NCBI GenBank assembly: GCA_003971905.1
Contig: RSEE01000008.1
Span: forward strand, 372,001 to 436,000
Source: Moniliella sp. 'wahieum'
Lineage: Eukaryota > Basidiomycota > Moniliellomycetes > Moniliellales > Moniliellaceae
Reading direction: 5' to 3'
Length of the DNA stretch: 64,000 bases
Below are positions 33,069 through 64,000 of the stretch, in pieces (position 1 is the first letter of the stretch; the number at the start of each line of letters is the position of its first letter). A program made the position numbers and the translations under genes. Under the pieces are notes generated by a model. It saw only the letters and a list, made by a program, of their open reading frames with translations, did not search any database and was not told the origin of the DNA.

Positions 33069-34555
33069 CTTTATACGCGAGGGTGCAAAGAAATCCGCCA
33101 ACGACCCTACTGCCCTCCGACCTGCACGTGACAGGGGGGGCGCTGGCTACGCCAATAATCGGGCATATGACAGAGTCGCGTCGACGCGTCCTCCACCCCC
33201 TTAAAATGCCCCCTACCCGTGCTCACTGGCGGTGTCCTCATTGCACTCGCACCCGGTGTCCCTTCAATCCACGCCCACCGTTGTGCCGCCACTGCCGTCG
33301 CCCCAAGACTGCCGACTCCCCACAATGATTATTTTCGCAAGACGGATGACCACCCGACGCGTCTCTGACTGGCTCAAAGGGGGGCGGTGGGGTGCAAAGA
33401 GTAACCGTGGCACAAGGCGGAGTGGTGGAGCAAGGAGGAGATGTGGAGAGCAATTGAGGGGGGGGGGGCAAGGGGGGACAAGAAGTGGAGGGGGACAAAG
33501 GGGATCGGTGGATGGTGGGCTCGATCCTTACCCTGGGCCCTGCCAGGAGGCTCTCACCCAGGTTGAGGGGTACAATCCCTTAGGTGAAGGACTCACGGTA
33601 GTTTCGGGTTTGAGCTATTTGGTGGCGTGAATCCGAGGCGGCTGTACGCGTGGCAAGGCTGCGTATGCGCCGGCTTGGAGGTAGTAACGTGTCTGAAGCC
33701 TCCGCGGCTCAGAGACGGGTAGAGGCAGTGGAGGACAAACCCTGCCAGGGCTGAGGCTGGGCAGGGGCGGCTGTCGACGTAGCTGTGAAAGGAACCTACG
33801 CAATATATGCTGTGGTAGGGGGAATCGACGCCGCTGAAGCAAGGCTCGCGCGACTGGGGGATGGAAAGCTGGAGAGGACGAGGTTGGATAATGAAGAGAT
33901 GAGGCAGCTAAGTGGGGACGAGAGGCTGCCTGCATTATACTCGACCAGTTGGCCGGAAACCGTCATGGGATGGACAAGAAAGGCGGTGGGAAGGCACGAG
34001 AATGGAAGGTGGGATAAAGGATCCTTCAGACAGGCGTGAAGGCAAAGGGGTGAGCCACAAGTCTTCAACTGAGCAACATCTGAAGGAAAGGAGACAGGAG
34101 AGAGAGAAGGGAGATAATGGAGCGAGCAGGGCGTGCGCGGCCTGCGAGCGGAACTCTTTCGACCGGCTAAGCGAGAGAGTCACCGATTTACTGAGGAGTG
34201 CAGGGGAGGCCTAGCACTACGTACTACCCCCCAACAGAAGCAAGCGGAGGCTGCGAACACACTAAGAAATCATCCGTGATAGCACTTCCTCGTACCCTCA
34301 TATATCGTGCCCCATAGCTTTTGAGCACCTGTGATTCGGTCAGCGCCGGTTATTAAATAGCCGGTAATTTCGGTTAGTGCAGGCCGTGCTTTTTTATTTG
34401 TTTCAGCACGTTTGCCCCACCGCCCATGTCGCTTGGGGCGGATACAAACGGGTGCGAGTGCCGTTGGCCACACCGAAATTTAAGCCCCACCTTTCCCTGC
34501 TCACGCTGACGACATACCACCACCTTGCCTACCCTTTCCAACACCATCAACCACA
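33069..34555. other. Unassigned region between LINE fragments and HMG-CoA lyase
   Basis: No host gene was recognised. At 33206-33328 a small plus frame encodes a zinc-ribbon-like WRCPHC...CPF...PPLCRHC segment, possibly the start of a mobile-element protein. A G-rich low-complexity stretch spans 33380-33500. Another open plus frame runs about 33750-34039 (VKGTYAIYAVVGGIDAAEAR) with no recognised family. The last 250 bases form the HMG-CoA lyase upstream region. Confidence 0.45.
33206..33328 (+). CDS. Small zinc-ribbon-like ORF (40 codons)
   Basis: ATG 33206 opens MPPTRAHWRCPHC, followed by CPF and LCRHC, giving a CxxC...C...CxxC spacing. It lies 140 bp beyond LINE copy 2 in gene-poor DNA, so it could be the 5' piece of another mobile element. 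There is no homologue I can name. Confidence 0.25.
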   Translation: MPPTRAHWRCPHCTRTRCPFNPRPPLCRHCRRPKTADSPQ

Positions 34556-43063: not shown

Positions 43064-44321
43064 TTAAAGCAGCAACGAGATGCCCAAGCCTGTCACAGCG
43101 ACAGCCACCACCGCTGTTCCGGCACGGACGATGCTAGCTGGGCTTTTGTGACTCTGGTTGCTCGAGCCCGATGAGCCCGATGAGCTCGACGAGCCCGCTG
43201 ACTTGACAAAGGCACGCACATCGTTTACCGCCCAGTATGCCTCCGAATAAGACGATCCGTTAAGCCCCACCTGGGACGGACACGAGGGGAAGTACTTGTT
43301 GCAACCAGAGATGTCATACGTGTTGGCTGCCCAGTCACCACACAGCGTCATAGTAAAGACAAGCGACATGTTGGAGAATTGGGATGAGCACGATGCGACA
43401 GGGAAGTCCGCTCCCGGCCGCCCCCAAGTCGAGGTATCGACGGTCTGGGAACCGGACTTGAGGTTGCTAGGTACCTGACTGTGCGGGAAGTACCAGACAC
43501 GAATACCAGAGCCCCCCGAGCTCAGGTCGCGCTCCATAGCGAACAATCCGCCTTGGGCTTGGTTCAGTGCCGGACCTGGTGGGAACGACGGTCTTGTCGC
43601 CCAGCACCGTCGTCTGGTTCATCTCGATACGGCAGCCTTCGTTGCCCGCAGCGTAGTTCACAGTGCAATTGTTGAGGGTCGTAATGCCAGTCTGATTCTG
43701 CTGGGTGGTAGGAAAGGTGCATTCGCCCCCAGTGTGGAGGGAAACGAGGTTGCCATTGAACTGGCCGCCGGTTTGGCCCGCATTAGGCACATTGGCATTC
43801 TCGAAAATGTCAATCTCCCCGCCTTGGGGGTAGTTTGGGTGTCGGGCGGGACCATCCAGAAGGAAGGCCAGACGGAGCAGCCGGTGGGGACATGGGTGGC
43901 ATTAAGGACAAATACACCATCTCCATAGGTCTGGTTGGAAGTGATGCGCACCGATGGACGGCCTCAGGCTGCACCTCGGTGGTATCCACGCGCATAATAA
44001 ATTGTCCATCGTTTTGGACATAGGTCAAGTTGGAGGCGATCGCGGTCGCCTTGGGCACATACTTTACCAGACCATGAGTCGAATCTGGGGAAGGCGGAGG
44101 GAAAAGAAAGGTGGAGTCAGCAAGGGGTGATGGACGGGTAGCATGCTGTTAGGAAGAAAGGGGGACCCACCAGACTGGTTGGTGATGTAGTCGCCCCAGT
44201 AGCGGAACTTGTTCTCAAAGTCCGAGCCGGTGTAGGTGTCCTGTAGGCCCCACTTGGCGGCGGACACGAGGGGGGCGAGCACAGCTGCACCGGCGGCAGC
44301 AGCAACAAAGGAGGAGCGCAT
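43064..44321 (-). CDS. GH16 family beta-glucanase, secreted and probably GPI-anchored
   Basis: Extracellular endo-1,3(4)-beta-glucanase-type enzyme of glycoside hydrolase family 16, acting on cell-wall glucans. ATG 44321 begins a signal peptide (SSFVAAAAGAAVLAPLVSA). Intron 44085..44170 joins NQS to DSTHGLVKYV. The GH16 core shows CSVWPSFWMV and the catalytic GGEIDIFENAN (E..D..E), then GGQFNGNLVSLHT, AMERDLSSGGSGIRVWYFP, TLCGDWA and YSEAYWAVNDVRAFV. The C-terminus is a Ser/Gly-rich linker plus a hydrophobic tail (VAVAVTGLGISLLL), typical of GPI attachment. The frame changes near 43950, 43840 and 43560; the last is next to a CCC run. The first ATG is at 44321; the preceding codon TTG is not a start. 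Confidence 0.9.
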
Positions 44322-44689
44322 GCGGGGCAAAAGAGTTGGTGGTGGGTGGGAAGCAGACGCGTGCGCAGCTGGCCGGATGGGCTTCTTTTAATGGGGCTAC
44401 ATACTGCGCGGCGCTGCCGATCAGCGGCGGGGATGCAGGATGCCGGTCGGCCGCTGAGCCGGGCGGCCGCTGAGCTCAGCAAACACTGCCCGACTGGGGG
44501 GCGCACCAGACAGGCCCCGAGGGGTGGTGCATGCTGTGACGTTGTGGCATGCAATGGGCTGGTGCTGGGGGGGGCGGCAGCCGGCTGCCACACTAGCATG
44601 CACTGGCATGTACTCAGTAACTCGGTACTCACAACTGACATGTCACAGCAACGCCTAATGCTTGCAGGATGCATGGTGGGCAATATGCA

Positions 44690-44775
44690 ATCCTCATCAT
44701 CGACATCATCGACATCATCGATCATCTGAACAGCGACCAGCGATCATCGATCAGATCGATCACCAGGATTACCCA
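44690..44775. repeat. CATCATCGA / GATCATCGATC simple repeat
   Basis: Three CATCATCGA units run into GATCATCGATCAGATCGATCA, which is largely palindromic. Same class as the block at 7963-8200. Confidence 0.8.
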
Positions 44776-44901
44776 GGTTGGGAGTCCTCACCAAATCAAC
44801 CAGTCAAGCTAGTCACCAGAAACGGGCAACGAGTAACGTTTAACGTTTAACGACTATCGATTAGGGTCGAGTAAATGACACAGAATCGCACGCACCGCTA
44901 G

Positions 44902-45030
44902 GGTACACGAACCACACGGCAACGCCTGTCGAACGCCGGGAGATGGAGCAGCATCGACTATTGAAGCAAGGGGAAAACGACAACAACGCCAAGTATACCA
45001 TCAGCCACGCACTCATCAGGAACCGTTCCT
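44902..45030 (+). mobile_element. Diverged relic of the LINE-like element
   Basis: Aligns with 32214-32340 of copy 1. It shares GTACACGA, TCGAACGCCGGGAGA, TTGAAGCAAGG and AACGCCAAGTA, and the encoded ERRE...LLKQ...NNAKY still parallels copy 1. It is much more divergent than the other copies, so it is an older insertion. Confidence 0.6.
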
Positions 45031-45981
45031 CCTGTCGTAGTGCATAATGTTGAGATCAATAAACGCACGCGGGCAAACTAGGCCGCCATGACGCCAAGAA
45101 GATGTTTGAGCTCTGGACGAAATTATATTGAGGGTACCGAGTACCGAGCAATGAAGCCTGAAGCGAAGCTTGAAGCTTAAAGCTTGAAGGCCGAGGGGTC
45201 TTCGCATCATCCATTACATCACGCCTCACCTGGCCACCCTCATCCACTCGCGCATTTTCGGTTTGGAAGCGATTGGGGGTAGCCGGTAGCCAGAGGGACT
45301 TATTGGCCTGTTAGCGAGACGCCATTGGTTTCCCAATAGGGTTATTGGCGCGTTGGCGCAAGCTAGCAACACATCCTGGATTGTAGCGTTTCTTAGTCCC
45401 TTCTGCCTTGCAAATGATATTGGATCTACCCTTCCCACAATCGGATGTAGCGCGACCCCGGAGACACGAATGTGCATCAGTGTGTGTGCCAGCCCAGTCA
45501 CTAGTCAGCCCTGTAACTTGTTTTCGAGTTGCCCTCACAAGTATAGCTCGCGGCATACCCCGTCCTCTGTCGCATTCATCGTGCTCGGAACAGTGGATCA
45601 TGAGACGGTGGGCGATACAACGGTGACATGGTGGTTACGTGGTTACCCTGACCTCAGTGTGGCCATGAGCCTTGTCGTCAACTAGTGCTATAGAACACGT
45701 CACACGTGGCATCGCGCGTGTGGTAAGGAACTGTAGCCAACTTGCAGTCTGTCTAAGGCCTACTGTGCCTCCCCTAAAAGGTGCTCTAAGTGGATACAGA
45801 AACGAGTGACAATCGCAAGGTGCTGGTAGGCATACTTTGAAAAGCTTGAAGAGCTTGAAGAGCTTCAAGCTCCACGACGGTTTCGCAACAAACGGGGTCC
45901 CCAAATGGGACCCAATTAGTCCATGCTTGACGTCGATCGGGAGTTTTGCCTAGACCACGACACCACCAGCCGTAATCATGC

Positions 45982-46396
45982 TTAGGTGTTGGGGTTCATG
46001 CGACGCTTGCCGTTGGGAGCCAGAGTGGCGTTCACAAAGCTACAATCCAGTCAGAATGGGTCCAACACAAACGAGAAGCGCAAAAAGGGAATGATACGCA
46101 CCGGCGCGTGTAAAGCAGGCGCTTCTTAGCGCGGCCCTTGGGCAGCTTCTTCTTCTCTTGAGGCTCAACCTTGGGAGTCTGGCCCTTGACCTTACCGGCA
46201 CGCGCGAGGGAACCGTGAACCTTACCCCTGTTTTAAGATAGGTCAGTATACCGCTATTCGAAAGCCAAAGGAGGGTGGGAGCAGGGGGAATGGTGCAGGC
46301 GGCAATCCCAAGTTGCAGCCACGCAATTTCCAAAGGGAACAGCAAGCAACAAGGGTAGCTGCAACGCCAGACTCCCCGCCGGGGAGAGACGTACAT
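45982..46396 (-). CDS. RPS30: 40S ribosomal protein eS30
   Basis: Small-subunit ribosomal protein eS30, here not fused to a ubiquitin-like domain, as usual in fungi. Exons complement(join(45982..46039, 46102..46227, 46395..46396)) give 61 residues with no frame break: [17 protein letters not shown], then a Lys-rich core and GKRRMNPNT at the end. The first exon contributes only AT of the start codon. The donor GTACGT follows directly, and the 167-nt intron ends ACAG before G-GGT-AAG. The second intron is 62 nt (GTGCGT...GTAG). Confidence 0.92.
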
Positions 46397-46906
46397 GTTG
46401 ATGGACTTGCTAAGGCAATCTGGTGGTTAGTCAAAGCACTGTGGCAACTAGCTGAGCCGAGTCAAATACACGAGCAATAGGGTTTGGGCGTTTTTTTTCT
46501 GCAGAGCAAATGAGCTGCGGTAATAACCCTACTAATTTACGCCATCGCGTCTTGGATCATCGATCACGACCACTTCGGAAATCGCTGATTTCCGCTGTCG
46601 ACTGCTGATTTAAAGTACCTGTGCGGACCCAAACTACCGAACCTATTTGCGAGCTCTTCAGTTTCTGTCCATCTGCAGGCAACCGCGCTTGACCTGTATC
46701 TTGTGCACGTGAGCTCAGACGGGACGTTGCCTACTATCTATATATCACACAGGATAATCCTGTTGGTCCGGTTTGACAAAAAAAGTACAGTCCGTAGGCC
46801 ATTTGGCCAGAGGCGGGGCGGGGGGGGGGGAGGATGTCGGGAAGAGAAGTAAACGAAAGGAAGAGAACATGCCCAGGAAACGTTATTTGTCGTCTAATGC
46901 ACACGA
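46397..46906. other. Intergenic region eS30-ITFG1-like
   Basis: Upstream of eS30 and downstream of the ITFG1-like gene. It has a TTTTTTTCT run (46491-46500), GATTTCCGCTGATTT repeats (46578-46612) and a TATATATC motif (46738-46746). No gene was recognised. Confidence 0.55.
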
Positions 46907-49428
46907 TCACAATGCGTCGAAATTGATCGCGTACACAATCTTCTTTCGTTCCCGTTCGTCCTCCCGCTGCAAAAACGTCAGTATGATTGGAAACAAAGTG
47001 GGAGAAAGAGGGACTCGCCTTCTCATGGTAGTGCAACAGTAGCACAATCCCCGCTAGGATCAAGAGGAAAACGCCGAGAACAATGGTGACCCATGCAATC
47101 CAGTCACCAGGTCGGAGGTACATTTCCTTGCCCCAGGTGATAGGGGACGGGTGGTGACCGTTGGCGGCTGCCACGGATTGATAAACACAAGCGAGTTGGG
47201 AATGACACCCTCCATCGACATTATCAAGCTTGCCTCCTCGGCTGCCTCGCGCTCCTGCGTCTTGCGATCCCGCGCCCATAGGTCATTGGCTGAGAATGCA
47301 ATCTGCCGTGCCTCTCGTGAGGTAATAGTCGAGTTGTCCACCACCGGGTGAGCCTTCACGGAGTGAATCTGTTTCGCCTCTTTTTCGTGGAGGCGACGAG
47401 ATGAGCCCATCTGGATCAGCTCCACATAATTGTTTGTTCGCCCCAGGCCGAGGTAGGTGTTGGGATGAACCAGCGAGCCGTAGCCGGTATGTGAGTACTG
47501 TGTGGCAGCCTGCGCCCGACGAACTCCATTGGTGTCGAGCACAGTGAACTTGTACGAAGCCCCGGCGTAGTTGACCCCCATGGCTTGAAGGGTAAGATGG
47601 ACTTGTTGCTTGGCTCGCACTCTCCATCACAGGCACCGTTGAGCATGGAAAGTTAAGGAAAAAGGAGTCAAAGAATAAGTTGTTCTGGACAAATGTGGGC
47701 CCCGGCGCACGATAGGAGGGCGGGAGGGTCCTTGATCCAATACTTCGACCGTTTGGAGCATATATCCAGCGTCCCGTCCTCGTCCAAATCCACGAAACTG
47801 ACCCCAACAACATTGGTGATCGTATCCAAGAGCTCCGACTGAGGGGCTTTGATAAACGTTCGCTCCTCTTTCCAGTCGTCGCCGCCTCCGCGGCCAGGGC
47901 CACAGCCAGCCACGCCGAGCCCAGCCTGGCCACACGCCACATTCTCCAACAGCACCGCCACACTGCCACCTTGGAACGCCTTGGTTGCCGTGACAAGGAG
48001 GTCAGGGTAGCCGTCCTTGTTGTAGTCCCCCACGCTGAAAGAAATGATGGGAGGCTGGGGAGTACACTCGTATCACTCAACAGAAGCATCCACCCCGGCC
48101 CCAGAATTTGAGAGACGGGGATCCTCCGGTCCCTTCGATTACCGGTGCCACCATTGCGGTGGGTAAGGCGGTCCAGGTCCAACGCGAAATGAGGGTCAGG
48201 TAGACAGAGTCGCTGAGGATCACGACACTTCACCTCCTCTTCCCCCGAGTCAGATGCTTCCGTATCACCCCAGGGAGGCCAAGTACGCCAGTTCCAGGAC
48301 CAATTCCAGGGCCATTCCCAGTGCTGATCGGCAAGAGTACAAAGTCCCACCTGCCGGTTGTAGACAATGTTGATGTAGCAATCCTTCTCGTCACAATTTC
48401 CAAATACCAGGTCGATCGTCCCGTCGCGGTTGAGATCAGAAAAACTCACCATCCCACTTCCAGGAGGCAAGTCGCCTGTCCGACTCAGTTGGAAATACGC
48501 CGTCTCATTCTCGACCGGAACCGAGGTACGAAGTGCGGTCCAGATCTCGTAGCTTGGGGCCGTAAATTGTTTCCCGACGCAAGTAAGGAACAGATCTGCA
48601 CAGCAATGTTAGGCACCCGTACGGATCACTAGGCATCAAAACGTACCAGCGACACAATCACCATTCAGGTCCACAAACGAGGACGAGTGAGGCGAGGTAA
48701 GCTGGCATCGGGACTTGGTCGGATGGCCATCCTGGTCGAGAAGAATAATTTTGTCCGCAACGAAGGCAGGATGGGTAGCGTTGGCGCTCTTTCTTCCCTC
48801 CATTTGATTCGGAAGAGCGTAAGAGGAGTATTGAAGCCCGGTGTGTGTCCCAGGAAGTCCATGGTCAAGTCCCCTGTGGCGTCAACGAGCACAGGATGGG
48901 CCAAGTTGGTCGACGGCAACTCAATTGGGGTTGGGTCAAATCCACCAGTCTCTCGTCCAATAAAGAGATGAAGGTTCAGAGTGTCTACCAACCCGTCTTT
49001 CGAGGGGGCCGACATGAGCACCAGTCCAGCACCCCATCGTGATTCACATCAGTCGGGACTGCGTTCTGGATCACACCTTTGCCAGGGAGGTTGAGTGTGG
49101 TGTACACAGTTGGCACGCCTTGGGGTGGTTCAAAGGCAAACCTGGCATGGTTCCACCTCCGCACTGATACGGCTGTGCCAGTGTCGTCCAGCAAAAACGC
49201 ATCGGTGAACTGGTCGCCATCCTCGTCACCCCAGGCGAGAATGCGGCCATCGTTGAGGCCCAGATCGCCGGTGCGGATCAGCCCCTCGTACTTGAAGCGC
49301 TTGCGGTTGAAGAGCCCCGCCTGGACCGGCTCTGCGCCGACATTCAGAAGAAGGAGAGCAAGAAGTGGCGACAGCGACAGCGACAGCAGCGCCCGCGCGC
49401 ACCAGTCCAGCCCAGTGAGCCGAGCCAT
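46907..49428 (-). CDS. ITFG1/LINKIN (T-cell immunomodulatory protein)-like FG-GAP membrane protein
   Basis: Type I membrane glycoprotein family with an FG-GAP/beta-propeller ectodomain; the fungal role is unknown. ATG 49428 (CCAATGGC) opens a signal peptide (LSLSPLLALLLLNVGAEPVQA). Propeller repeats follow (LAWGDEDGDQFTDAFLLD, FSDLNRDGTIDLVFGN, DYNKDGYPDLLVT, FVDLDEDGTLDI). The family blocks GVNYAGASYKFTVLDTNG, YLGLGRTNNYVE and IPNSLVFINPWQ come next, then one transmembrane helix (WVTIVLGVFLLILAGIVLLL). The short cytoplasmic tail ends REDERERKKIVYAINFDAL. The last intron (46967..47018) appears to use a GC donor. Several frame changes occur between 47160 and 49020, so inner exon limits are provisional. 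Confidence 0.82.
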
Positions 49429-49653
49429 TGGTGGGCGTTGTGGAGATGAGAGGCGCTGATTGGGTGCACTTGTGGCCCGGAGGCCGCCGCCACAACGACG
49501 CGCGTTGAACATTGAACGTACATTGAACGTTCAGGCCAACATTGAACGTTTGAACGCGCCCAGTTGCACCGACTGGGCGGTCTTTTTTTTTCGGGTGCCC
49601 TCGCCAGCCGCTCCCCACCTCCTTCTTTCTCCCACCCAATCTGCCTCACCACC
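49429..49653. promoter_or_regulatory. Divergent ITFG1-like/ERB1 upstream region with repeated ACATTGAACGT motif
   Basis: ACATTGAACGT occurs three times (49509-49519, 49520-49530, 49539-49549), with half-copies at both sides (GTTGAAC at 49505, TTGAACG at 49551). A T-run (49583-49590) and a C-rich leader precede the ERB1 start. The spacing and repetition suggest a binding-site cluster; the factor is unknown. Confidence 0.5.
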
Positions 49654-52205
49654 ATGCCGCCCGCCCGGGTCGATGGCAAGCGCAAGCGTGCCCGAGAGCA
49701 ATCCGGCGTCCCTGCGACCAAGGAGGATGTGAAGGACGTGCTGGGACAGACTGCGTCCGGTGAATTGGACCTTGCCGATGCTGGCTCCTCGTCGGAGGAG
49801 GAAGCAGAGGCAGACGACGAGTCCGACCCGGAGGTGGAGGCCCTGCCTGAGATTGATGCAGCGCCTTCGGACGATGAAGAGAAGCCGTCGGGTGATTCGG
49901 AAACGGAGGATGACGAAGGGTTCGATTCGGAGGACATCGATAACTGGGATGGATCCGGCGAAGAAGGAGAGGATGACCGTTTGCGCGCGTTTGGCCGAAA
50001 GAAGATGAGTCCTCGGATATCTCGAGTGGAGACGAAACCGCTCCTGGAACTGCTGAAGAGGCTTCCAAGATTGAGTCTCGTCTGTCGCGTGCCATTCAAA
50101 AGGCGCGCGGTGCCAAACCCGAGGAAGGCGAGACGGAATACAACAATCTTGGTATCGACACCCGCTTCGCCGCATCCAACATCGACCCTGCAAAACAAAA
50201 CCCAGATGGGTCAAACAAGGGCGTGCTCACAGTCAGTGAGCTGACGGGTGTACCCAAGCGTGTCTACCCCCAATCGAGCCTAATTACGACTCTGATTCGT
50301 CCACGGAAGAGACGACGAACCGCATTGGGAATGTGCCGCTGGAGTGGTACGATGATCTTCCGCACATTGGGTATGATGTGAACGGGAAGAAGGTGCTCCG
50401 CCCGGCCCAGGGTGATGCACTGGACAACTTCCTTGCCACAATGGAGGACCCCGAAAGCTGGATGACGGCTGAAGACAAGCGCACGGGTGGACAAGTGCGT
50501 CTGACGGACGAGGAGCTGGACATCATTCGTCGTTTGCAAAATTCGGAGATTCCCGACGAATCTTACAACCCCTACGAGCCTACCGTCGAGTGGTTCACTG
50601 GAAAGGGGATGGAAATGCAGACTCCTATGACGGCACGACCGGAGCCCAAGTCAAGGTTTGTCCCATCCAAGTGGGAGCACAAGAAGATCATGAAGATTGT
50701 GCGGGCCATCCGCGAGGGAAGAATTGTGCCACGGCGCCGGCGCAGGAGACGCCCGAGTACTACGATGTGGGAGAACGAGCAGGCTAGGGAAGACCACCCT
50801 ATGCACATGCCCGCGCCCAAGCTCGCCCTCCCTGGGCATGAAGAGAGCTACAACCCGCCCGCTGAATACTTGCTGGATGAGGCGGAGCGCAAGGCTTGGG
50901 AACAAGCTGCACCTGAGGACCGTAAGCTGAACTTCTTGCCCGCCAAGATGAGCTCGTTGCGGTCGTGCCACGGTATGAGAATTCTGTCAGGGAGCGTATG
51001 GACCGTTGCTTGGACCTACTTGGCCCCGCGCATGCTCAAGCGTAAGGTCGACGTGCCGAACGCAGAGGTGTTGTTGCCAAGCTGCCTGCTCCCAAGGACT
51101 TGCGTCCGTTCCCTACCCACAGCGGCAGTCGAGTACAAACATCCTTCTGCTCCCCGTGTGCGGGCAGCTGCTCTGGACCCTACCGGTGCCTGGGCCGCTA
51201 CTGGCGCTGAGGATGGTCGTGTGCGTCTGTGGAACTTGACAACGGGACGGTGCGATGCCGTGTACGACCTTCATGCCTCCTCGGCAAAGGAGGACCGCGC
51301 ACCCGTGTACTCGCTTGCCTGGTGCCCCAACGCAAGCAAGTCACTTTTGGTTGCCAGCACGGTGGGCCGAATCGCGATCATCGCCCCCCGGGAGGGAAAC
51401 GTTGGCTTCCCTGCGACAACTAGCGAGTCGTTCCAATATGCCATTCAAGGCTTTCCTATTGGGGATGAGGAAAAGGATGAGAAAGCACCTGCTGAGTGGG
51501 TACGTCCTGCGAATGCGGAGCGTGAGCGTGGAATCGCTGTCTACATTCACATCCCCGGTACGGCCCGACAGGTTGCATTCCACCCCAAGGGTGACTACTT
51601 CGTCACGGTGGTACCTGATGCGACACGCGGGCGGGCTGTGTTGGTTCACCAGCTGTCGCGCCATCGTTCCCAGGCGCCATTCCGAAGGGTGGCTAAGGGT
51701 TCGGCAGTGCAACGTGCTGTGTTCCATCCTACTCGGCCACACCTCCTGGTCGCGACGCAACGGTACGTACGGATCTACGACTTGGCCCAGCAAGCTCTGG
51801 TGCAGACGCTCCAGACAGGGCTACGCTGGATCTCGTCGCTATCCGTGCACCCAAGCGGGGAGCATGTCTTGGTCGGTTCGTACGATCGCAAGTTGCTCTG
51901 GTTTGACCTTGAACTATCAACGCGGGCTACAAGATGCTCGGTACCACGCTCGGGCGGTACGCCAGGTGGCTTTCCATCCGACCTTGCCGCTTTTTGCATC
52001 GGTCGCCGACGACGGCCAAGCGCACATCTACCACGCCACGGTTTACTCGGACTGGGCACAGAACGCTTTGATTGTACCGCTCAAGATCTTGCGTGGCCAC
52101 CAGGTTAAGCAAGGACTTGGGATCTTGGACGCCATGTGGCATCCCTCCAAGCCCTGGCTACTCACCGCAGGTGCTGACGGCCTCGCTCGTCTTTGGTCTA
52201 ACTGA
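49654..52205 (+). CDS. ERB1: Ribosome biogenesis protein ERB1 (BOP1)
   Basis: Component of the PeBoW complex (NOP7-ERB1-YTM1), required in the nucleolus for 27S pre-rRNA processing and 60S assembly. ATG 49654 (CACCATGCC) opens a basic then very acidic N-terminus ([19 protein letters not shown]). The BOP1NT domain follows: [69 protein letters not shown]. Then come WD40 repeats ([40 protein letters not shown]) and the last repeat [20 protein letters not shown]. The frame changes near 50010, 50265, 50735, 50980-51120 and 51930, each with the protein continuing in another frame. No introns were needed. Confidence 0.93.
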
Positions 52206-52554
52206 TTGGCCCCCAAAGGGCAGTTACTTGCGTTTTCTTTGACTCTGGTCAGGTCGAGGCTATAGAGGCTCCGTATAGTCAAGTGAGAACACGCACACGT
52301 GGTACTTGGATGTACACGTAGCAGCAATTGTAAGAAACTGGCGGCAATTAGATGGCCTCTATAGCCAGCTAATTGAAGAAGTCAGGGAGCAGAGCAAGAG
52401 CACGGAGGGTGAACAAAGTATCGGGCGCAAGCAGTAGTGCCAAAATATCAGACAGGGTATAGAAGCCACCAGCGGTACGGAGGGTCGGTTATACGACAAT
52501 GAAGCTATCATCTGTCACTACAGTACAGTCAAGAGAGGGGAAGAGAGTGCATCA
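52206..52554. other. Intergenic region ERB1-left palindrome arm
   Basis: The 3' flank of ERB1. From about 52500 it is recognisably but imperfectly related to 62886-62935, beyond the edge of the right arm. No gene was recognised. Confidence 0.55.
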
Positions 52555-52704
52555 TGTCAATTTTTTCTCCGGGGTGGAAGGGGGGATGAAGTACGTGAGG
52601 TCGTGAAGCCAGAGCAGACGGATCAGGGTAACGTGAAAGGAGGGGTGTAATAGACATCCCTCGAGGGGGGAAAAGTGGTATCTGAGGAGGGTGAAGATGG
52701 GGCT

Positions 52705-54583
52705 TTAGTACGTTTCCGGAGTAGAAGGTTCCGGCGTCTATCGCCAAGAGACGATTCGGCCATCTTTTCATCCTCCACTTTCTCCTCGCCAATCTTCTCC
52801 ATGTCCGCGGCAGTCACGAGAGTGGCAACCTCGCCCTTAACCAAAGCACGGCGCGAAGTGAAGCCAGGAGGGCACCACGTGCGGCTGTTCCAGGGCTTGC
52901 AGCTCGGGTCGTGGTACATCAAGTCGACTTGCTCAAGAGTAAGCCCCTGAGTCTCCGGACGAAGAAGAAGACGAGGAGAGCGTTGACAATGTTCCAGGAA
53001 GCAAAGATGAAACCGTAGGCTGCGAATGCAAGAGGTCAGCGCGGGATCGATACAACCAGAGCCCAACAAACATCAGGAGAAATATGCGTACCATAGCCAA
53101 TATTGCCCGTAATGGGCTGCGTGAAGAATGCCAAAGCAAAGTTCCAGGCCCAATTGGTGGCTGTCGAAAGGGCGGCTTGCTTGGAACGAGTGCGCGCGCC
53201 AAAGTTCTCGCCGCACCAGACCCACACGGCAGGAGACCATGTGCAAGCAAGGCAGAAGACAAAGAAGCAGCCAGCAACGGTCATCAGATCACCCACTCCC
53301 TTGGAGAGGTGGGGCTGACCCATCACACCGCTCTCGTTACCAGCGACACCCGCGATGGCAAAGACGAACAGCCACAGGGAGCATCCAAGCGCGCCATAGA
53401 AGAGCGTGTTGCGGCGACCCCATGCTTCCACCATCCACAGACCAGGGGCAGTGCAGACAAAGTTGACCGCGCCAAGAATGATTTGAGTCACGTACGAGTC
53501 CTTGAGGCCGGCGTTGGCAAATACCTGGTTGCCATAGAAGAAGAAATCTGGGGAGAAGAAAAAGAGTCAGGAAGGAGCGGTCGGGAAGAGGTGGGAGTGT
53601 AACGTACAGTTGCCGCCACAGAGTTGCTGCCCCATCTGAAGCGCCATGCCCATGCACGTCCGGAAGCAAGTCGAGTTTTCGAATTTGAAGCAGTCAGCCC
53701 ACGTTGCGTCGGCGGCGTTGGCAGCTTTTTCCTCCTCGATATGCTGGATCAGGTCCTGGTACTCCGATTCGACGTGCGGGTCCTGGTCCGCAACGCTCAC
53801 ACCATGCATCTGGGCGATCGCCCTCTTCGCTTCATCGTACCGGCCTTTTTGTACGCTAATGGTGGGCGACTCGGGCGTCAGCATCGCAACTGCGCCTTGA
53901 AGCATGGCAAACACAAAGCCGATCGCAACCAATACTCGCCACGATGCCGAATCGTTGTTGCCAGCGTACCGCGTACCGATGGCAATGGCGTAGGCCAACA
54001 GAATGCCAAGGGTAATCGCAAACTGGAAGAAGCCGCCCATCATACCACGGATTTGCCGGGGCATGAGTTCGGATTGATACACTGGCGCAAGGGCGGAGGA
54101 CATGCCAATGCCGTAGCCAGATACCAAACGGCCAATGCCAAATTGAACCCAGGAGTGGACAGAGGCGACCTTGATGATGCAACCGATGATGATCCACAGA
54201 GCTGACACCTGGACACTGTACTTTGTGCCCAGGCGGTTTTGCCAGATGTTGCCCGTAAGAGCGCCAATGCCACAGCCGATCGACATGAAACCAGTGATCA
54301 GGCCCTGGAGCCAAGGCGACCAGGCCTTCTCATACTTCCCGTCGGGGTAAGTGACCGCCCCGTAGCAAACCGGCGTTGGAAATCTTGCATGGGGTACAAA
54401 CCAGCCATAATGCCGGTCTCATAGCCAAACTGTTGTCATGAAAATAACAGCGATCAGTATGGGATGTTCTTCATTTGGTGCACGAATGAGGGGGAGACAT
54501 GGACATACGTTAAGACCGGCACCGATGGTCACCAGGGTTACCAGGTGAACCATAATGCCGATAGAAGTGCCTCCGAGTTTCAT
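52705..54583 (-). CDS. MFS sugar (hexose-type) transporter, copy A
   Basis: Plasma-membrane sugar transporter of the major facilitator superfamily, with 12 predicted hydrophobic segments. It is the mirror copy of 60853-62735, with the same four exons. Exon 1 is 54509..54583 and the first intron 54430..54508. Sequence features are as in copy B: LNFGYETGIMAG, YGIGMSSALAPVYQSELMPR, PESPTIS, VEAWGRRNT and RETQGLTLEQVDLMY. Relative to copy B it lacks one base in a C run in exon 2 (near 54357) and one A near 52741, which as written would change the frame and move the stop downstream to 52623. These look like read errors, since the rest of the arm is otherwise nearly identical. Confidence 0.9.
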
Positions 54584-56040
54584 GGTGAAGCCGAAGAACT
54601 AGTGGTAAGGAAATAGGAGCGCGGAAAGAGTAGGAGTGTGTGAACCTCAAAGAGGTGGGCGTGTGGCTGGTATAATAGCCTGTAGGGTGTGGGTTGGTTA
54701 CTGAGAAGACGGAGGAGAGATGTTGTGGACAAGAAGAACAATCGATGGGGTCGGTGGTCCTCTGTTATATACCCCAAAGATGTATAACACAAGAGAGAAG
54801 ACTAGGCGCCAAGAAGCCAGTGTAGGAACAAGCACAACAGTACAGGAACAATTCCAACTGTTGCATGGGGGAACTTTTGCCAGCCACGCGGGTCATCCAT
54901 CAGTCGACCAGCGGTGCTGCTTCATGCATCATGCATCATGACCATTCCATATTCATCTCAGGCTCTTGATCCCCTGTGAGAGACATGTGACATGTGACAT
55001 GTGAGGCCTGAGATCTGGCGATCAGTCGATCAGGAGAAGAAGGCAAAGGCCTAAGGCCTACCGCATAACAGTAACCCCCCCCTCCACTCTGTACGCAACG
55101 TTCACAAAATGCTTAATGCAGCGCGCCCTCCCTGCGATTGCAGGCTGTTCCTCTGCGAGAGCTATACACAAACGCCGTCCCAGACAGCACTGCGACTTCG
55201 ATGCGAGTGCGCAGTGTGGGGGCTATGGACAGCCATACGGAGCCCCAGGGAGCCCCACTATTATGCTCTAGGTCCCAGACACGCAAAGCCTCTTGCCTCT
55301 GCCCACAATATAGCCGCCATGTTTCAGGTAATCAAATGTCTATAGGCTCTAGGCACGAGGCCTGAGGCCGGCCTGAGGTCTTTCCGGACTTTGCCGGCGG
55401 TACGTATGTTTCTAGTGTGAGTGATATAATAGTCTCGGCCGCACTTCTGTCACGCTCCCGTCTGACCAGTGTCCATATGTAGCCCGTTGTTCGGCTTAGG
55501 TCTTACTCAGTCCGCCGGCACAGTTGCGACAATCTGGCGTGCCTGTATGTCCCGTTGGCGCTTAGCGCATTAGCTCACTACTACATGGACAGTTGCACCG
55601 CCAGTACTCCGCCCCACTAAGCTTCGAACTTTTCAAGCCGTCAGGCCTCAGGCTCAGGCCTCAGGCTTCAGGAGCTTCGGGCCCCTCACCTCAGGCTTCA
55701 GACCCTTCTTTGCTCTAACCTTTCAACGCCCCATTCGACACCCAATTTAGTCTCGCTAACGTCCCATAAACCCCACGCGAGGGCCTGCCTTTAGAACAAC
55801 ATCCCCAGGTGCGGTTGCCTGCGCAAGGGTCACCGGCGGTCTCCAGCGGTCCGAGGGCTAGCCCTGGCCACACATGTCCGAGACCACAAAAATGACCTGC
55901 TCTCTCTCTCCACCTATTTGTAAGGGCGCCATATGCCGTCAGCATCCCCATCCTCTCGCCTCTGGCGCCACTCCTCATCTCCATTCCCATTTCGTCTCTT
56001 TCTCTTCTCCTCTTCCCAGTCCGGGCTCGACCCAGCGCAT
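54584..56040. other. Transporter A upstream region inside left arm
   Basis: 1.46 kb without a gene. It contains CATGCATCATGCATCATGAC (54923-54943), ATGTGACATGTGACATGTGA (54984-55004), AGGCCTAAGGCCTA (55047-55061) and GGCCTCAGG clusters (55355-55382, 55642-55670). It is mirrored in the right arm, so it is either selected or recently copied. Confidence 0.6.
54763..54772 (-). promoter_or_regulatory. TATA-like box of transporter A
   Basis: GTATATAAC on the minus strand, about 185 bases upstream of the start codon, mirrored exactly at copy B. A CTC-rich, CA-ending leader follows. Confidence 0.5.
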
Positions 56041-56730
56041 GTCTTCCCGCTCATGATCCACACTGCATAACTGTACTTGAGATAATATGTCGCTGGAAAG
56101 CCAGGATCCTTGCAGCTCGCCTTGGCCTCGCTCATGTTGGAGCATTTGTCACGGGTGAAGGCGGACTGACAATCCCCGCGGAGCCTACGCGCGCCCTTCG
56201 CCTTCCTAACCCCGTTCCCTTGTTGGTTAAATGGTCAGATCCTTTCTGATCCGATCTCAACATTCAACTGAGGCCCGTTCTCTACCGAGAATAGAGCACA
56301 CTCCCTGATCATCGATCAGATTCAACTCAATCCGATCCTCGTAGTGGCTGTGGCAAGCCCCCCAGTGCGACGACCAAAGTTTTACATATCCGCACAACAA
56401 TAGCCCAGGCCCCCGCGGGCGGTGCCAGCCCCCCGTGACAGAGCTCGACTTTGGTGGTCTACACCTCTCACCCCTATTTTGGTTCGACGCGATCAACAGA
56501 AGGCGCTCAGCCTCACATGCAAAACCAGCTCCATCATTGTTTGTCCTCACTGATGCACACTGCTGCTCTGTCGTTCCACGATCTCGTCCGTCTTTCCCTG
56601 GCAGTAGCGTTAAATGCGTTTCCACCTGACCTCTCTCCTGTCCCAGAAATGAGACCGCCTCTGCTTTTGCTCGAAGGAAACTGATCATTTCCCGGCTCCA
56701 TTTCCCGGCTCCACTTCCCTAAGCAACATG

Positions 56731-56960
56731 TGATGACACCTGGAGTCCTGATGGTCCTCGAGGGTGACGCAATCGCACTGATGGTGGTGGTGGTCTAAGT
56801 CAACCAGCAACGCCTACAGAGGAACATCATGCAGCGAGTCGCCACCAGGGGCTAAGCCGCGGAAGAAGGAAAAGCAGGAGAGAGAAAACAACGGAACTCC
56901 CAGGCCTGAGGAGAACTGAAGGGACATTGGCCAAAAAGCACGAGCCACCCCATGGCTCAA
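56731..56960 (+). repeat. Dispersed element R3, copy b (intact 230 nt)
   Basis: Starts TGATGACACCTGGAGTC and ends CCATGGCTCAA. It is flanked by perfect 7-bp direct repeats CAACATG (56724-56730 and 56961-56967). It aligns along its length with copy a (39694-40380) once the nested LTR is removed. It carries a (TGG)4 run (56780-56792). No coding frame or inverted termini were seen. Confidence 0.82.
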
Positions 56961-57134
56961 CAACATGCAAAACATTGGCCCTTCTTGGATGGTGGGGAGC
57001 AGACCAGGAGATGCCTCTTCAAATACTCTCATCCGCCTGACTCTATATGATGGGGGACGATTCACATTTATGGCCTTGCTCGAGAAACTGAGAGAGACCT
57101 CCATTGCCAAGCTTCTGGAGTCAATCACGATCCC

Positions 57135-57743
57135 ATGTCTTCTTCAAACGGATCCAAGCAGCGAGAGAAGTCGTTCGAATTGATCGCAGCAGACAGTGTG
57201 ATTCACTGCAACACGAACTTCTTCCACGTCGACCGACATCACCGAGATCGGTTAGAGCCACAACCGAAACGACAACCCAAAAAAGGGGGTGACAAGTTCC
57301 TGCCTGCTACGGATCAAATTCCATCTGCTTCTTCGTCGCATCGGCTCTTGATCCTCTGCTTCGGCTACGCATATAAGGCCAAGAATAGAAACACTTTTTT
57401 TACCAATGAGACAACCTGTGGCGGAACGAGATGCAAGCATTGTTTGTCCACCGAGAGTGGGTGTCTGCCACATCCGTGTTTCCTATACTGTTTTGTGCCG
57501 GCCCGACTGCTTTTTGGGGTATATACAGTCTCAGCTAGCCTAGAAGCAACGTTTTTGTATTCTCATGGCCTGTCGTTGTGCCCCGACCTCATGGCTGAAT
57601 TCCGGGCCAACCCAATCCCCCACATGTGGCCGATCGGTCATCAAAGGGCGAATGGAGAGCACTTAAAGAGGAAATGTTTACCCTCCTCAAAAACTGATGC
57701 CACTTCCTGCCTTAATTCCCCCCTTTTGAATCCATATCATTGA
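57135..57743 (+). CDS. Doubtful 202-codon ORF in the palindrome spacer
   Basis: The longest open frame of the spacer, ATG 57135 (MSSSNGSKQREKSFEL). Its centre is Cys/His-rich (TTCGGTRCKHCLS, CLPHPCFLYC). It runs into the LINE copy 3 tail, where its last codons and stop come from LINE sequence. That argues that it is either chance or a gene truncated by the insertion. No family was recognised. Confidence 0.2.
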   Translation: MSSSNGSKQREKSFELIAADSVIHCNTNFFHVDRHHRDRLEPQPKRQPKKGGDKFLPATDQIPSASSSHRLLILCFGYAYKAKNRNTFFTNETTCGGTRCKHCLSTESGCLPHPCFLYCFVPARLLFGVYTVSASLEATFLYSHGLSLCPDLMAEFRANPIPHMWPIGHQRANGEHLKRKCLPSSKTDATSCLNSPLLNPYH

Positions 57744-58491
57744 CAGAGCTTAAGGCTGGGACAGGGGAACGCTACGTCTAAACCGAACCGTTCATCTTGC
57801 GGGGGTTACTTGGAAGCCCCACTAAGGTCAAGGAACCAGGGGGATCGCCAGGATATCAGGACCCTCCGGTTCTCGCCATCCGGTCCCGTACCCTAGGAAG
57901 CGCGTGTGGACACGGATGAACGTGGTTGGCATCCGAGCGAGGAACCATTTCCACTGAGACTTAGTAGCCAACTCCTTCCAATGCGCAAACAACTTGTCCG
58001 CTGTCTTGGTTCCGTAGTATCCTCGCGTCGTCAAAACCAGGGGGAAAAACGGCTCTTGAGTGCGTCCCTGGTACTTGGCGTTCTTGTCGCATTCTGCTTG
58101 TTCAAGCAGCCGAAACAGTTCCTTCTCCCGGCGTTCCAAAGGCGACGCAGTGCTCTCGTGTACCACCCGCCGGTACGCGCTCTGCGCCTCTTGCGTTCCC
58201 GTGTCGCGCAGGTGTGGTCCATCTCCATTCCTGATCCTCCAGTGCTCCAGGCCCCATCACGCGGTAGTCGGTGCGCTGTGCCCTCGGTCCGCGCCTCGTC
58301 CCATCCTCGTCCTCCACCATAGGTTCGTTGCGGACGTGAGTGTCGGGGATGGAGCGAATGAGCTGGAGAATGGGCTCCCGCACTGCCTCATGCAACGCAC
58401 TAAACTTGGCCTGGGTGCGGGTACAAGACATGATGTGCTCCAGCGAGGACATGGCACCGCACTTGCATATGCTGCGCGTGGGTGCGGCACA
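57727..58491 (-). mobile_element. LINE-like retroelement, 3' part, copy 3
   Basis: Minus-strand copy sharing the 3' end (TGTCAATGATATGGATTCA) and the region coding for CKCGAMSSLEHIMSC, LERREKEL and FIRVHTRFLGYGTGWREPEG with copy 1. It is 5'-truncated close to the zinc finger, and its ORF is interrupted. It lies inside the palindrome spacer and not in the arms, so it arrived independently of arm copying. Confidence 0.75.
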
Positions 58492-58598
58492 TAAGGGGGG
58501 GTTCACCACACCTTCCTCTTCTTCCCCATCCCGTTGTGCTGAAGACATATAGGACTTTCCAAAAACCGATTGACTTTAGACGTTTTGTAATGATTACA

Positions 58599-58783
58599 AG
58601 GAGAACCACCGGGCCTACTGCCCGGTCAGCCGGGGCTTCGCCCCAGCTGCCGTTCCCCCTTCGCCACCGTAGCCACCGTTCCACCGTCGCCAACACCGAC
58701 ATAGAAATAATTCACCGATTCGTTCTGACTGCAGGGGGCGTGGAACGTGGCACGGGGCACAGCTGATGTAAAAAGTGCACAGG
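58599..58783 (+). repeat. Dispersed repeat R2, copy b
   Basis: Same orientation as copy a at 31611-31775. It contains two hairpins, ACCGGGC-CTACT-GCCCGGT and GGGGC-TTC-GCCCC, followed by the shared CCACCGTTCCAC and GTGCACAGG blocks. It lies about 110 bp from the truncated end of LINE copy 3, here in opposite relative orientation to that seen at copy a, so R2 is not simply part of the LINE. Confidence 0.7.
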
Positions 58784-60662
58784 GCGAATGGAGGAATAAT
58801 ATAACGTAGGGATATGCCGTACTATGTGTATTACCCTCTCCCTCTCTTTTCGGTTGGAAGGTACTGTAGCGACGTACTATACGGCAAGCAGAAGGCGCGA
58901 TCTGAGCTACCACACAGAAGCAGATGAGCGAAACGAGGTAACGAGGTGCGTGACGAGGTGGCAGTGGCAGGGAAGAACTGAGGAATGCGCCAACAGCGGT
59001 GTCTACTACACGAGCGGCTTACAATTGAAACAAATGGTGGAGGCGCCACTGCTGGGACGCGCGGCGCAGACTAAGCCTGAAACAAGCTTGTAACGCCACT
59101 CACAACAGCCACAGTGCAACAGTATATTTTTCAAAAGCAAAAAGACATTGACCTCGTTTCCCTACTGGCCAAAACACAACGGCTGATGCATATAGTTACC
59201 TACTGCTCCTTCGCGAGTTGCCCCAGGCCACTTGCCATGGCTAGGGGGCGCACCAGAGCGTGGCTGATACATTGGTGGTTGCCGCGTGTGTGGCGGGTCC
59301 GTGCGACTCGGCATCATCACCCTGCTCCTTCTGCGGCGCTTCTTACAAAACGCGTTAAGCCACCAGTAATGAGCTCTATAGAGAGAAGATATGCGCTGGG
59401 TCGAGCCCGGACTGGGGAAGAGGAGAAGAGAAAGAGACGAAATGGGAATGGAGATGAGGAGTGGCGCCAGAGGCGAGAGGATGGGGATGCTGACGGCATA
59501 TGGCGCCCTTACAAATAGGTGGAGAGAGAGAAGCAGGTCATTTTTGTGGTCTCGGACATGTGTGGCCAGGGCTAGCCCTCGGACCGCTGGAGACCGCCGG
59601 TGACCCTTGCGCAGGCAACCGCACCTGGGGATGTTGTTCTAAAGGCAGGCCCTCGCGTGGGGTTTATGGGACGTTAGCGAGACTAAATTGGGTGTCGAAT
59701 GGGGCGTTGAAAGGTTGAGAGCAAAGAAGGGTCTGAAGCCTGAGGTGAGGGGCCCGAAGCTCCTGAAGCCTGAGGCCTGAGCCTGAGGCCTGACGGCTTG
59801 AAAAGTTCGAAGCTTAGTGGGGCGGAGTACTGGCGGTGCAACTGTCCATGTAGTAGTGAGCTAATGCGCTAAGCGCCAACGGGACATACAGGCACGCCAG
59901 ATTGTCGCAACTGTGCCGGCGGACTGAGTAAGACCTAAGCCGAACAACGGGCTACATATGGACACTGGTCAGACGGGAGACGTGACAGAAGTGCGGCCGA
60001 GACTATTATATCACTCACACTAGAAACATACGTACCGCCGGCAAAGTCCGGAAAGACCTCAGGCCGGCCTCAGGCCTCGTGCCTAGAGCCTATAGACATT
60101 TGATTACCTGAAACATGGCGGCTATATTGTGGGCAGAGGCAAGAGGCTTTGCGTGTCTGGGACCTAGAGCATAATAGTGGGGCTCCCTGGGGCTCCGTAT
60201 GGCTGTCCATAGCCCCCACATCTGCGCACTCGCATCGAAGTCGCAGTGCTGTCTGGGACGGCGTTTGTGTATAGCTCTCGCAGAGGAACAGCCTGCAATC
60301 GCAGGGAGGGCGCGCTGCATTAAGCATTTTGTGAACGTTGCGTACAGAGTGGAGGGGGGGTTACTGTTATGCGGTAGGCCTTAGGCCTTTGCCTTCTTCT
60401 CCTGATCGACTGATCGCCAGATCTCAGGCCTCACATGTCACATGTCACATGTCTCTCACAGGGGAATCAAGAGCCTGAGATGAATATGGAATGGTCATGA
60501 TGCATGATGCATGAAGCAGCACCGCTGGTCGACTGATGGATGACCCGCGTGGCTGGCAAAAGTTCCCCCATGCAACAGTTGGAATTGTTCCTGTACTGTT
60601 GTGCTTGTTCCTACACTGGCTTCTTGGCGCCTAGTCTTCTCTCTTGTGTTATACATCTTTGG

Positions 60663-60672
60663 GGTATATAAC
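60663..60672 (+). promoter_or_regulatory. TATA-like box of transporter B
   Basis: GGTATATAAC, about 185 bases upstream of ATG 60853, followed by a CT/CA-rich leader (60700-60790). Mirrored at copy A. Confidence 0.5.
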
Positions 60673-60852
60673 AGAGGACCACCGACCCCATCGATTGTTC
60701 TTCTTGTCCACAACATCTCTCCTCCGTCTTCTCAGTAACCAACCCACACCCTACAGGCTATTATACCAGCCACACGCCCACCTCTTTGAGGTTCACACAC
60801 TCCTACTCTTTCCGCGCTCCTATTTCCTTACCACTAGTTCTTCGGCTTCACC

Positions 60853-62735
60853 ATGAAACTCGGAGGCACTTCTATCGGCATTATGGTTCACCTGGTAACC
60901 CTGGTGACCATCGGTGCCGGTCTTAACGTATGTCCATGTCTCCCCCTCATTCGTGCACCAAATGAAGAACATCCCATACTGATCGCTGTTATTTTCATGA
61001 CAACAGTTTGGCTATGAGACCGGCATTATGGCTGGTTTGTACCCCATGCAAGATTTCCAACGCCGGTTTGCTACGGGGGCGGTCACTTACCCCGACGGGA
61101 AGTATGAGAAGGCCTGGTCGCCTTGGCTCCAGGGCCTGATCACTGGTTTCATGTCGATCGGCTGTGGCATTGGCGCTCTTACGGGCAACATCTGGCAAAA
61201 CCGCCTGGGCACAAAGTACAGTGTCCAGGTGTCAGCTCTGTGGATCATCATCGGTTGCATCATCAAGGTCGCCTCTGTCCACTCCTGGGTTCAATTTGGC
61301 ATTGGCCGTTTGGTATCTGGCTACGGCATTGGCATGTCCTCCGCCCTTGCGCCAGTGTATCAATCCGAACTCATGCCCCGGCAAATCCGTGGTATGATGG
61401 GCGGCTTCTTCCAGTTTGCGATTACCCTTGGCATTCTGTTGGCCTACGCCATTGCCATCGGTACGCGGTACGCTGGCAACAACGATTCGGCATCGTGGCG
61501 AGTATTGGTTGCGATCGGCTTTGTGTTTGCCATGCTTCAAGGCGCAGTTGCGATGCTGACGCCCGAGTCGCCCACCATTAGCGTACAAAAAGGCCGGTAC
61601 GATGAAGCGAAGAGGGCGATCGCCCAGATGCATGGTGTGAGCGTTGCGGACCAGGACCCGCACGTCGAATCGGAGTACCAGGACCTGATCCAGCATATCG
61701 AGGAGGAAAAAGCTGCCAACGCCGCCGACGCAACGTGGGCTGACTGCTTCAAATTCGAAAACTCGACTTGCTTCCGGACGTGCATGGGCATGGCGCTTCA
61801 GATGGGGCAGCAACTCTGTGGCGGCAACTGTACGTTACACTCCCACCTCTTCCCGACCGCTCCCTTCCTGACTCTTTTTCTTCTCCCCAGATTTCTTCTT
61901 CTATGGCAACCAGGTATTTGCCAACGCCGGCCTCAAGGACTCGTACGTGACTCAAATCATTCTTGGCGCGGTCAACTTTGTCTGCACTGCCCCTGGTCTG
62001 TGGATGGTGGAAGCATGGGGTCGCCGCAACACGCTCTTCTATGGCGCGCTTGGATGCTCCCTGTGGCTGTTCGTCTTTGCCATCGCGGGTGTCGCTGGTA
62101 ACGAGAGCGGTGTGATGGGTCAGCCCCACCTCTCCAAGGGAGTGGGTGATCTGATGACCGTTGCTGGCTGCTTCTTTGTCTTCTGCCTTGCTTGCACATG
62201 GTCTCCTGCCGTGTGGGTCTGGTGCGGCGAGAACTTTGGCGCGCGCACTCGTTCCAAGCAAGCCGCCCTTTCGACAGCCACCAATTGGGCCTGGAACTTT
62301 GCTTTGGCATTCTTCACGCAGCCCATTACGGGCAATATTGGCTATGGTACGCATATTTCTCCTGATGTTTGTTGGGCTCTGGTTGTATCGATCCCGCGCT
62401 GACCTCTTGCATTCGCAGCCTACGGTTTCATCTTTGCTTCCTGGAACATTGTCAACGCTCTCCTCGTCTTCTTCTTCGTCCGGGAGACTCAGGGGCTTAC
62501 TCTTGAGCAAGTCGACTTGATGTACCACGACCCGAGCTGCAAGCCCTGGAACAGCCGCACGTGGTGCCCTCCTGGCTTCACTTCGCGCCGTGCTTTGGTT
62601 AAGGGCGAGGTTGCCACTCTCGTGACTGCCGCGGACATGGAGAAGATTGGCGAGGAGAAAGTGGAGGATGAAAAGATGGCCGAATCGTCTCTTGGCGATA
62701 AGACGCCGGAACCTTCTACTCCGGAAACGTACTAA
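60853..62735 (+). CDS. MFS sugar (hexose-type) transporter, copy B
   Basis: Plasma-membrane sugar transporter. Exons join(60853..60927, 61007..61829, 61891..62346, 62419..62735) give 556 residues with no frame break. All introns are GT-AG (79, 61 and 72 nt). ATG 60853 has CACCATGAA context. Motifs: first helix with LNFGYETGIMAG, GRLVSGYGIGMSSALAPVYQ and ELMPRQIRG (loop 2-3 type), PESPTISVQKGRYDEAKRAI before the central loop, QQLCGGNYFFFYG (helix 7), EAWGRRNT, and RETQGLTLEQVDLMY after helix 12, where most family members have PETKGL. The C-terminal tail is acidic/Lys-rich (GEEKVEDEKMAE). Substrate is inferred, not proven. Confidence 0.93.
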
Positions 62736-62885
62736 AGCCCCATCTTCACCCTCCTCAGATACCACTTTTCCCCCTCGAGGGATGTCTATTACACCCTCCT
62801 TTCACGTTACCCTGATCCGTCTGCTCTGGCTTCACGACCTCACGTACTTCATCCCCTCTTCCACCCCGGAGAAAAAATTGACATT

Positions 62886-64000
62886 CTGCACCCTCCCCTC
62901 TCTTGACTGCGCTGTGATAGAGATGATAGCTTCCCTATAGGCTGACCCCCCTGGCACCAATCCCGCTTCTATTTTGTTCGAGTATGGTTCATGCACCTCC
63001 ATGCTTCCAGTGTGTCGCGCTGCCATCGGGAGCATCGGTGATACACCAGCTGCGCTTCTGCTGCAGGTGCTGAATTAAGGGGGTCATTTTGCTGGGGGGC
63101 GAAAGGCGGCCTAAAACCCGGATCAAATGGGCACAGTCCGCATCCCCTGCTGTTCGGGGAGGACTCACCTACTGTATGTTTTGGCCGGATCCGAATGGCC
63201 ATCGGTTGAGCAGACCAACCACGTAACCACGTGAAGTCCAGTATAGTAGACCGCCTCGAGGTTCACAGCTCGGGAAGAAACGAAGATGGGTTACGCGGTC
63301 CTGGATCATGATCCGGCAGAGGGGAACGATGCCTTCCACTGCTTGGTGCTCTGGATTGTTGACGGGGGGGCACCCATGCGTACCCAGTACTCGTTTGGCC
63401 ATCGGAAATATCTATAGTAGTGGGAACGGATATTTCGGTGGAGCGGTTGAACCACAAGAAACAAGTGCATACCCGTTGGTGTGATCACGTTGGACGGGCG
63501 CTTGATCGTGACCTCATCCTTGCTGCTCACCGGGGCGAACGTTGCGTCTCCGTCAGCCACAGAAAGGATCGCGCGTTGGTCAACAGGTGAATCGCACATA
63601 ATATGAACGTTTTGTTGTCCGATATGAAGGCAGCTATGATTATAGGCAAGAGGAAAGAGCCATGGCGGAGTGAGAGGTCCGAAATGGAGTTCAGTGAGTC
63701 GGAGAAGAATTTGCTTATTTTCAAGTCAAGGAGAACACAGGAGCGGGGCACTGTGGTGGCAACGTCAATACACAACACCACGGCGTAGTCATGACCACAT
63801 CGCTCGGCCTGTGCACATTCTGTTCAATCAGCATCCCTGCTCTGGACCAACGTAGCATGAAGTTCAACCTGCCTGCCAACATGCATGCGCGCTGGCACCA
63901 GTGCAACTGAGCTCACCATCCCCTTTTGAGCACCAGGCAAAATTTCGACACATTCCCTTTCTCGTCCGGAAGGGAGGCCTCAAGGAAAAAGAGACTGGCA
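62886..64000. other. Right end of window, no clear gene
   Basis: Beyond the right arm. A minus frame from about 63720 to 63306 is open for roughly 138 codons (LRLTELHFGPLTPPWLFPL, then an internal ATG at 63599 and DEVTIKRPSNVITPTG). It could be an exon or relic of an unrecognised gene. The last 100 bases show nothing definite. Confidence 0.4.

Follow-up and report, generated by a model that had tools for sequence, protein, structure and literature searches.

Structure of the palindrome

Does the inverted pair of sugar-transporter genes on contig C8 of the Moniliella sp. 'wahieum' assembly represent a real palindrome and, if so, how have its two arms remained almost identical? The window examined here, a stretch of 64,000 nucleotides (C8:372001-436000), belongs to a genome assembly of 69.5 Mb in 223 contigs; coordinates on C8 are those of the window, with the numbering continued past its end where required. 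Comparison of the window with itself by BLASTN yields one large inverted repeat, in which arm A (52501-56046, forward strand) matches arm B (62933-59385, reverse strand) at 99.24% identity over 3556 columns, with 10 mismatches and 15 gap openings. The palindrome proposed by the sequence-only reading is therefore real, and slightly longer than the reported 52555 to 62885: the outermost 50 bp or so of the arms are alignable at higher divergence, out to edges at 52501 and 62933. The inner arms (52560-56040 and 59386-62870) match almost perfectly, as had been noted, with 1 substitution in 3470 compared bases; the remaining differences are mostly single-base gaps. The arms enclose a spacer of 3.34 kb (56047-59384), close to the earlier estimate of 3.35 kb.

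Each arm holds a transporter gene and about 1.47 kb of upstream DNA, and both genes are transcribed outward, as previously described. Copy B (60853-62735, forward strand) is intact and encodes 556 amino acids in four exons (60853-60927, 61007-61829, 61891-62346 and 62419-62732; stop codon 62733-62735), its start codon lying 1468 bp from the inner edge of arm B, in agreement with the roughly 1.46 kb first given. The predicted protein matches Pfam Sugar_tr (PF00083; 2.6e-107) over its full length (profile positions 2-452 of 452), and its score of 359.9 bits against a curated cut-off of 22.3 places it in that family; the four exons agree with the first description. Copy A is present at 52705-54583 on the reverse strand; three exon bases of copy B are missing from it. 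Some exon bases are also missing from the transporter copies of the homologous contig described below; the missing bases of copy A are probably assembly errors, real breakage of the gene being a possible alternative. Among the best 120 of 215 listed relatives of the transporter protein, identity does not exceed 47%. Close paralogues within the assembly, at 77-82% DNA identity, lie on contigs C33, C15/C26, C3/C79 and C12; the paired contigs C15/C26 and C3/C79 are 93-94% alike, and no partner for C12 or C33 was found among the six 9-kb pieces compared.

The left flank of arm A contains the later part of a BOP1/ERB1 gene (50240-52205, forward strand; Pfam BOP1NT, 7.4e-83), whose protein has two relatives at 84% and 80% identity, followed by Tilletiaria anomala at 60% as the nearest named organism. 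No structured RNA reached the Rfam gathering score within 44000-64000, and a promoter and terminator scan of 52400-52600 employed a bacterial-type model that is uninformative for a eukaryote.

A homologous contig with the spacer reversed

The same palindrome is found on contig C23, which is collinear with C8: window positions 1-3000 are matched at 97%, and about 10 kb of matching sequence lies on either side of the palindrome. The C23 arms occupy 99954-103443 and 105847-109339, with edges that coincide with those on C8 to about 20 bp. With all 17 candidates scored, the arm is found in four places at 95% identity or more, two on each of C8 and C23; other long matches are paralogues at 77-82%, and the upstream portion of the arm is confined to these four arms, barring 3 short matches elsewhere.

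The arms are more alike within a chromosome than between chromosomes, with 1 substitution in 3470 bases within C8 and 6 in 3430 within C23, against 139 in 3424 between the left arms of the two contigs. Arms that had evolved apart since C8 and C23 separated would be expected to differ by about 140 substitutions or more; the 1 and 6 observed thus point to exchange within each chromosome. Synonymous divergence (dS) of the transporter follows the same pattern, being 0 within C8, 0 within C23 (where the two genes differ by 1 nonsynonymous change) and 0.098 between the contigs, with 0.044 for BOP1 between the contigs. Outside the arms, C8 and C23 differ by substitution at 248 of 9797 bases to the left of the palindrome, at 519 of 10516 to its right and at 218 of 2323 within the spacer. 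The ratio dN/dS of the transporter between C8 and C23 is about 0.04, which indicates that the gene is under purifying selection. A doubled transporter dosage, as suggested earlier, would be consistent with the presence of two such selected genes on each chromosome. No GC-biased signature of conversion emerged from the changes from W to S and from S to W, whose numbers are too small to be decisive: 13 and 16 in the arm gene (10 unpolarised) and 7 and 12 in BOP1 (5 unpolarised).

Alignment of all four arms confirms this pairing column by column. Of the 114 gap-free two-state columns in the interior, 113 group the two arms of one contig together and the other is a difference confined to one arm; none groups left arm with left arm or the arms crosswise. 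Over the whole alignment, the 17 left-left columns occur exclusively in the outermost 200, and the 17 crosswise columns, with one exception, in the last 100 or so; hence the outer flanks are collinear and the inner edges are swapped. The spacer itself gives the same picture: its C8 and C23 versions match in three pieces, every one of them in reverse orientation, whereas the outer flanks run in the same direction on both contigs. Both spacer orientations are accordingly present in the assembly, and the spacer inversion that had been envisaged is supported at that level, as the expected crossover product of exchange between the arms.

Probable conversion and crossover between the arms

Taken together, the comparisons make it probable that a sugar-transporter gene was duplicated in inverted orientation long ago and that the two resulting arms have since recombined on the same chromosome. 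Non-crossover exchange, or gene conversion, would copy one arm onto the other and would keep the arms of each chromosome nearly identical even as divergence accumulates between the homologous chromosomes; an occasional crossover between the same arms would turn the spacer round, and C8 and C23 would then be separated by an odd number of flips. Conversion plus crossover as the cause of both homogenisation and flip is what we infer from these sequence patterns.

It is unlikely, though the chief caution here, that the arms are truly homogenised and the opposite spacer orientations merely reflect a choice by the assembler, one true orientation being common to both chromosomes. Arms of 3.5 kb this similar can allow an assembler to misplace a spacer or to homogenise the arms, and the residual gaps betray an imperfect assembly; however, the entire palindrome would fit inside any read longer than about 10 kb, the 4% difference between the C8 and C23 arms makes reads assignable to one contig or the other, and contigs reach more than 1 Mb.

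Creation of the identity within each contig by read correction or polishing, from arms that are in truth more diverged, is very improbable. Errors of this sort are conceivable, and the same artefact is weighed for Saccharomyces in the relevant part of PMC9731477; that part also reports, from comparison of independent assemblies, that repeat sequences from long reads are generally accurate. In the present assembly, contigs 4% apart stayed separate and the arms retain single-base gaps of their own. With gaps that adjoin other gap columns excluded from the count, the arm interiors show 22 isolated single-column gaps when all four arms are aligned, of which 21 are confined to one arm, as would be the case for residual deletion errors of assembly.

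Contents of the spacer and age of the palindrome

The spacer contains a decayed fragment of a gene designated R (56503-59360, forward strand; 77-80% identical to C28:116357-117817), which is interrupted by two inserts present on C8 only. The first insert (57731-58492), opposite a gap of 762 columns in C23, is a high-copy dispersed repeat found in at least 40 places including itself (40 scored of 1149 candidates); the second (58607-58819), opposite a gap of 213 columns, is related to shorter dispersed repeats, with partial matches elsewhere. Another dispersed repeat, of 232 bp (56731-56962), recurs at 89-92% identity in no fewer than 37 further places (40 of 643 candidates scored). The spacer was considered as a gene in its own right and rejected: two frames of a C8-only insert are without a Pfam match, and the remainder is a relic of R. 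Directly outside arm B lies a decayed copy of a second gene, X (62947-64000, reverse strand, continuing to 65113 past the window; 72.7% identical to C28:113979-116049).

Within C28:113612-119410, X and R are adjacent on the same strand, and both are open there (R at C28:116357-117817 and beyond, minus strand); the frames of both are interrupted on C8 and C23 alike. None of the three R frames on C28 has a Pfam match. One frame of X scores just under the cut-off for PIG-H, another is below the cut-off for PD40, and a profile search of the genome returns one PIG-H match over the cut-off, on C28. This single match stands beside the presence of BOP1 on three contigs.

Compared with C28, the C8 and C23 spacers have seven identical gap runs in common, one of them of 127 columns, and in three-way alignment the two spacers agree against C28 in 442 columns, with 72 and 65 columns for the other two pairings. 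Decay of the R fragment thus seems to predate the separation of C8 and C23. The R and X fragments are co-oriented on C23 as on C28, but not on C8, a weak hint that the C23 spacer may have the older orientation.

Since the palindromes share their edges and the same decayed spacer fragment, separate formation is implausible and the palindrome is, on this sequence comparison, older than the C8/C23 split and homogenised within each chromosome. Two recent events, one on each homologue, would also yield arms with almost no divergence within a contig, yet they would have had to arrive at corresponding edges that differ by no more than about 20 bp from C8 to C23 and at spacers derived from one and the same decayed fragment, which makes such a history highly improbable. 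Fold-back chimeras do occur in long-read data, and an assembly duplication had been named as a possible undoing of the palindrome; a second arm produced by such a chimera or by a duplicated contig end can be virtually dismissed, as the structure is present on two contigs diverged by about 4%, where each arm is bordered on its outer side by unique sequence of its own and the outer sequence is collinear between the contigs for about 10 kb on each side. The proposal that the palindrome is a copy-number intermediate is not supported, given its age, which exceeds a C8/C23 divergence of 0.098 in transporter dS, and the presence of two arms per contig.

A diverged region with one transporter

A third region, C33:635000-647000, is homologous to C8 50160-69181, with a dS of about 0.9-1.0 from C8. 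Its gene order is BOP1 (83%), one transporter in the orientation of arm A (80%) and a later gene matching C8 68485-69181; between the transporter and the homologue of 68485-69181, BLASTN at 1e-6 finds no second transporter and no match to R or X. Synonymous divergence against C33 ranges from 0.86 to 1.00. The position of BOP1 beside the transporter is a gene order common to C8, C23 and C33. The one-transporter order is plausibly ancestral, as would fit descent of the palindrome from a single gene; loss of one transporter copy from C33 is a possible alternative.

BOP1NT has 5 matches on C8, C23 and C33 (6 of 6 candidates scored), which suggests three or more homologous sets in this genome, of which two are close to each other and another is distant. 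Candidate explanations for multiple sets are a dikaryon, a hybrid, a duplicated genome or a mixed culture.

Relation to known systems

In methylotrophic yeasts, mating type is switched by a flip/flop in which a segment is inverted through crossover between its flanking inverted repeats, each a few kilobases long; the likeness of the C8/C23 palindrome to this system is confined to the geometry of the inverting crossover. A nearer parallel is the flip/flop (FF) region of Saccharomyces chromosome XIV (PMC9731477). Its inverted repeats, gene-bearing and about 4 kb long, keep constant edges and are homogenised in each strain and species; the DNA they enclose occurs in both orientations, and gene conversion with occasional crossover is proposed as the cause. 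Homogenised gene-bearing repeats, constant edges and, as assembled here, both orientations are common to the two systems. The FF region carries sporulation (Centroid) genes in its arms and has a 24-kb middle with 15 genes (PMC9731477), whereas the palindrome reported here carries a sugar transporter, has a spacer of 2.4-3.3 kb that holds no intact gene and is known from one assembly. Identity with the FF locus itself was considered and rejected: the arm gene is a Sugar_tr transporter rather than a Centroid gene, and thus the palindrome resembles FF in its working without being a member of it. By analogy, then, it is a structure of an already known kind, one that works like a flip/flop region.

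On the mammalian X, inversion has recurred between homogenised repeats (Caceres et al., cited after PMC9731477); there, too, one pair of inverted repeats undergoes conversion as well as inversion, in other organisms and with other genes, and the arrangement is maintained over many species. Mammalian sex-chromosome palindromes (PMC8981503) are alike in holding arm identity above 99% through gene conversion, and a GC bias is reported for them; unlike these, the C8/C23 palindrome does not, as far as known, lie on a sex chromosome. The analogy with Y palindromes drawn earlier holds for arm homogenisation, the Saccharomyces FF region described in PMC9731477 being the closer precedent. In yeast, template switching at short inverted repeats likewise gives both homogenised arms and inverted spacers, and differs in that the repeats are short, lie inside genes and recombine by switching of the polymerase template (PMC8604942). 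No description of the C8/C23 locus was found in the literature searched.

A single assembly thus offers three comparisons, namely the arms of the palindrome, a homologue with reversed spacer and a diverged region with one transporter, which together constitute a small natural basidiomycete system for inversion and for conversion from one arm to the other. No intact gene lies between the arms, an indication that persistence of the palindrome rests on its arms rather than on its spacer. A bolder proposal, and a decidedly unlikely one, is that selection for two identical transporters keeps the palindrome and that the arm exchange this needs flips the spacer repeatedly within one fungus, leaving its nuclei structurally mixed, with an orientation that could shift expression between the copies. 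A flip would not alter the 1.47 kb nearest to each gene, which is part of the arm, and would swap which copy adjoins the repeat-laden end of the spacer, with a possible shift in expression between the two.

Other inverted arrangements

On contig C70, two DKCLD (Cbf5-type) genes separated by about 103 kb point in opposite directions (C70:37001-42000 and 140501-145500). As a second homogenised palindrome this pair was rejected, the two 5-kb pieces matching over 1483 columns at only 86%. Within the window, positions 31648-33069 contain a copy of the spacer's high-copy repeat with an inverted pair of its own (32339-33069, 89.5%).
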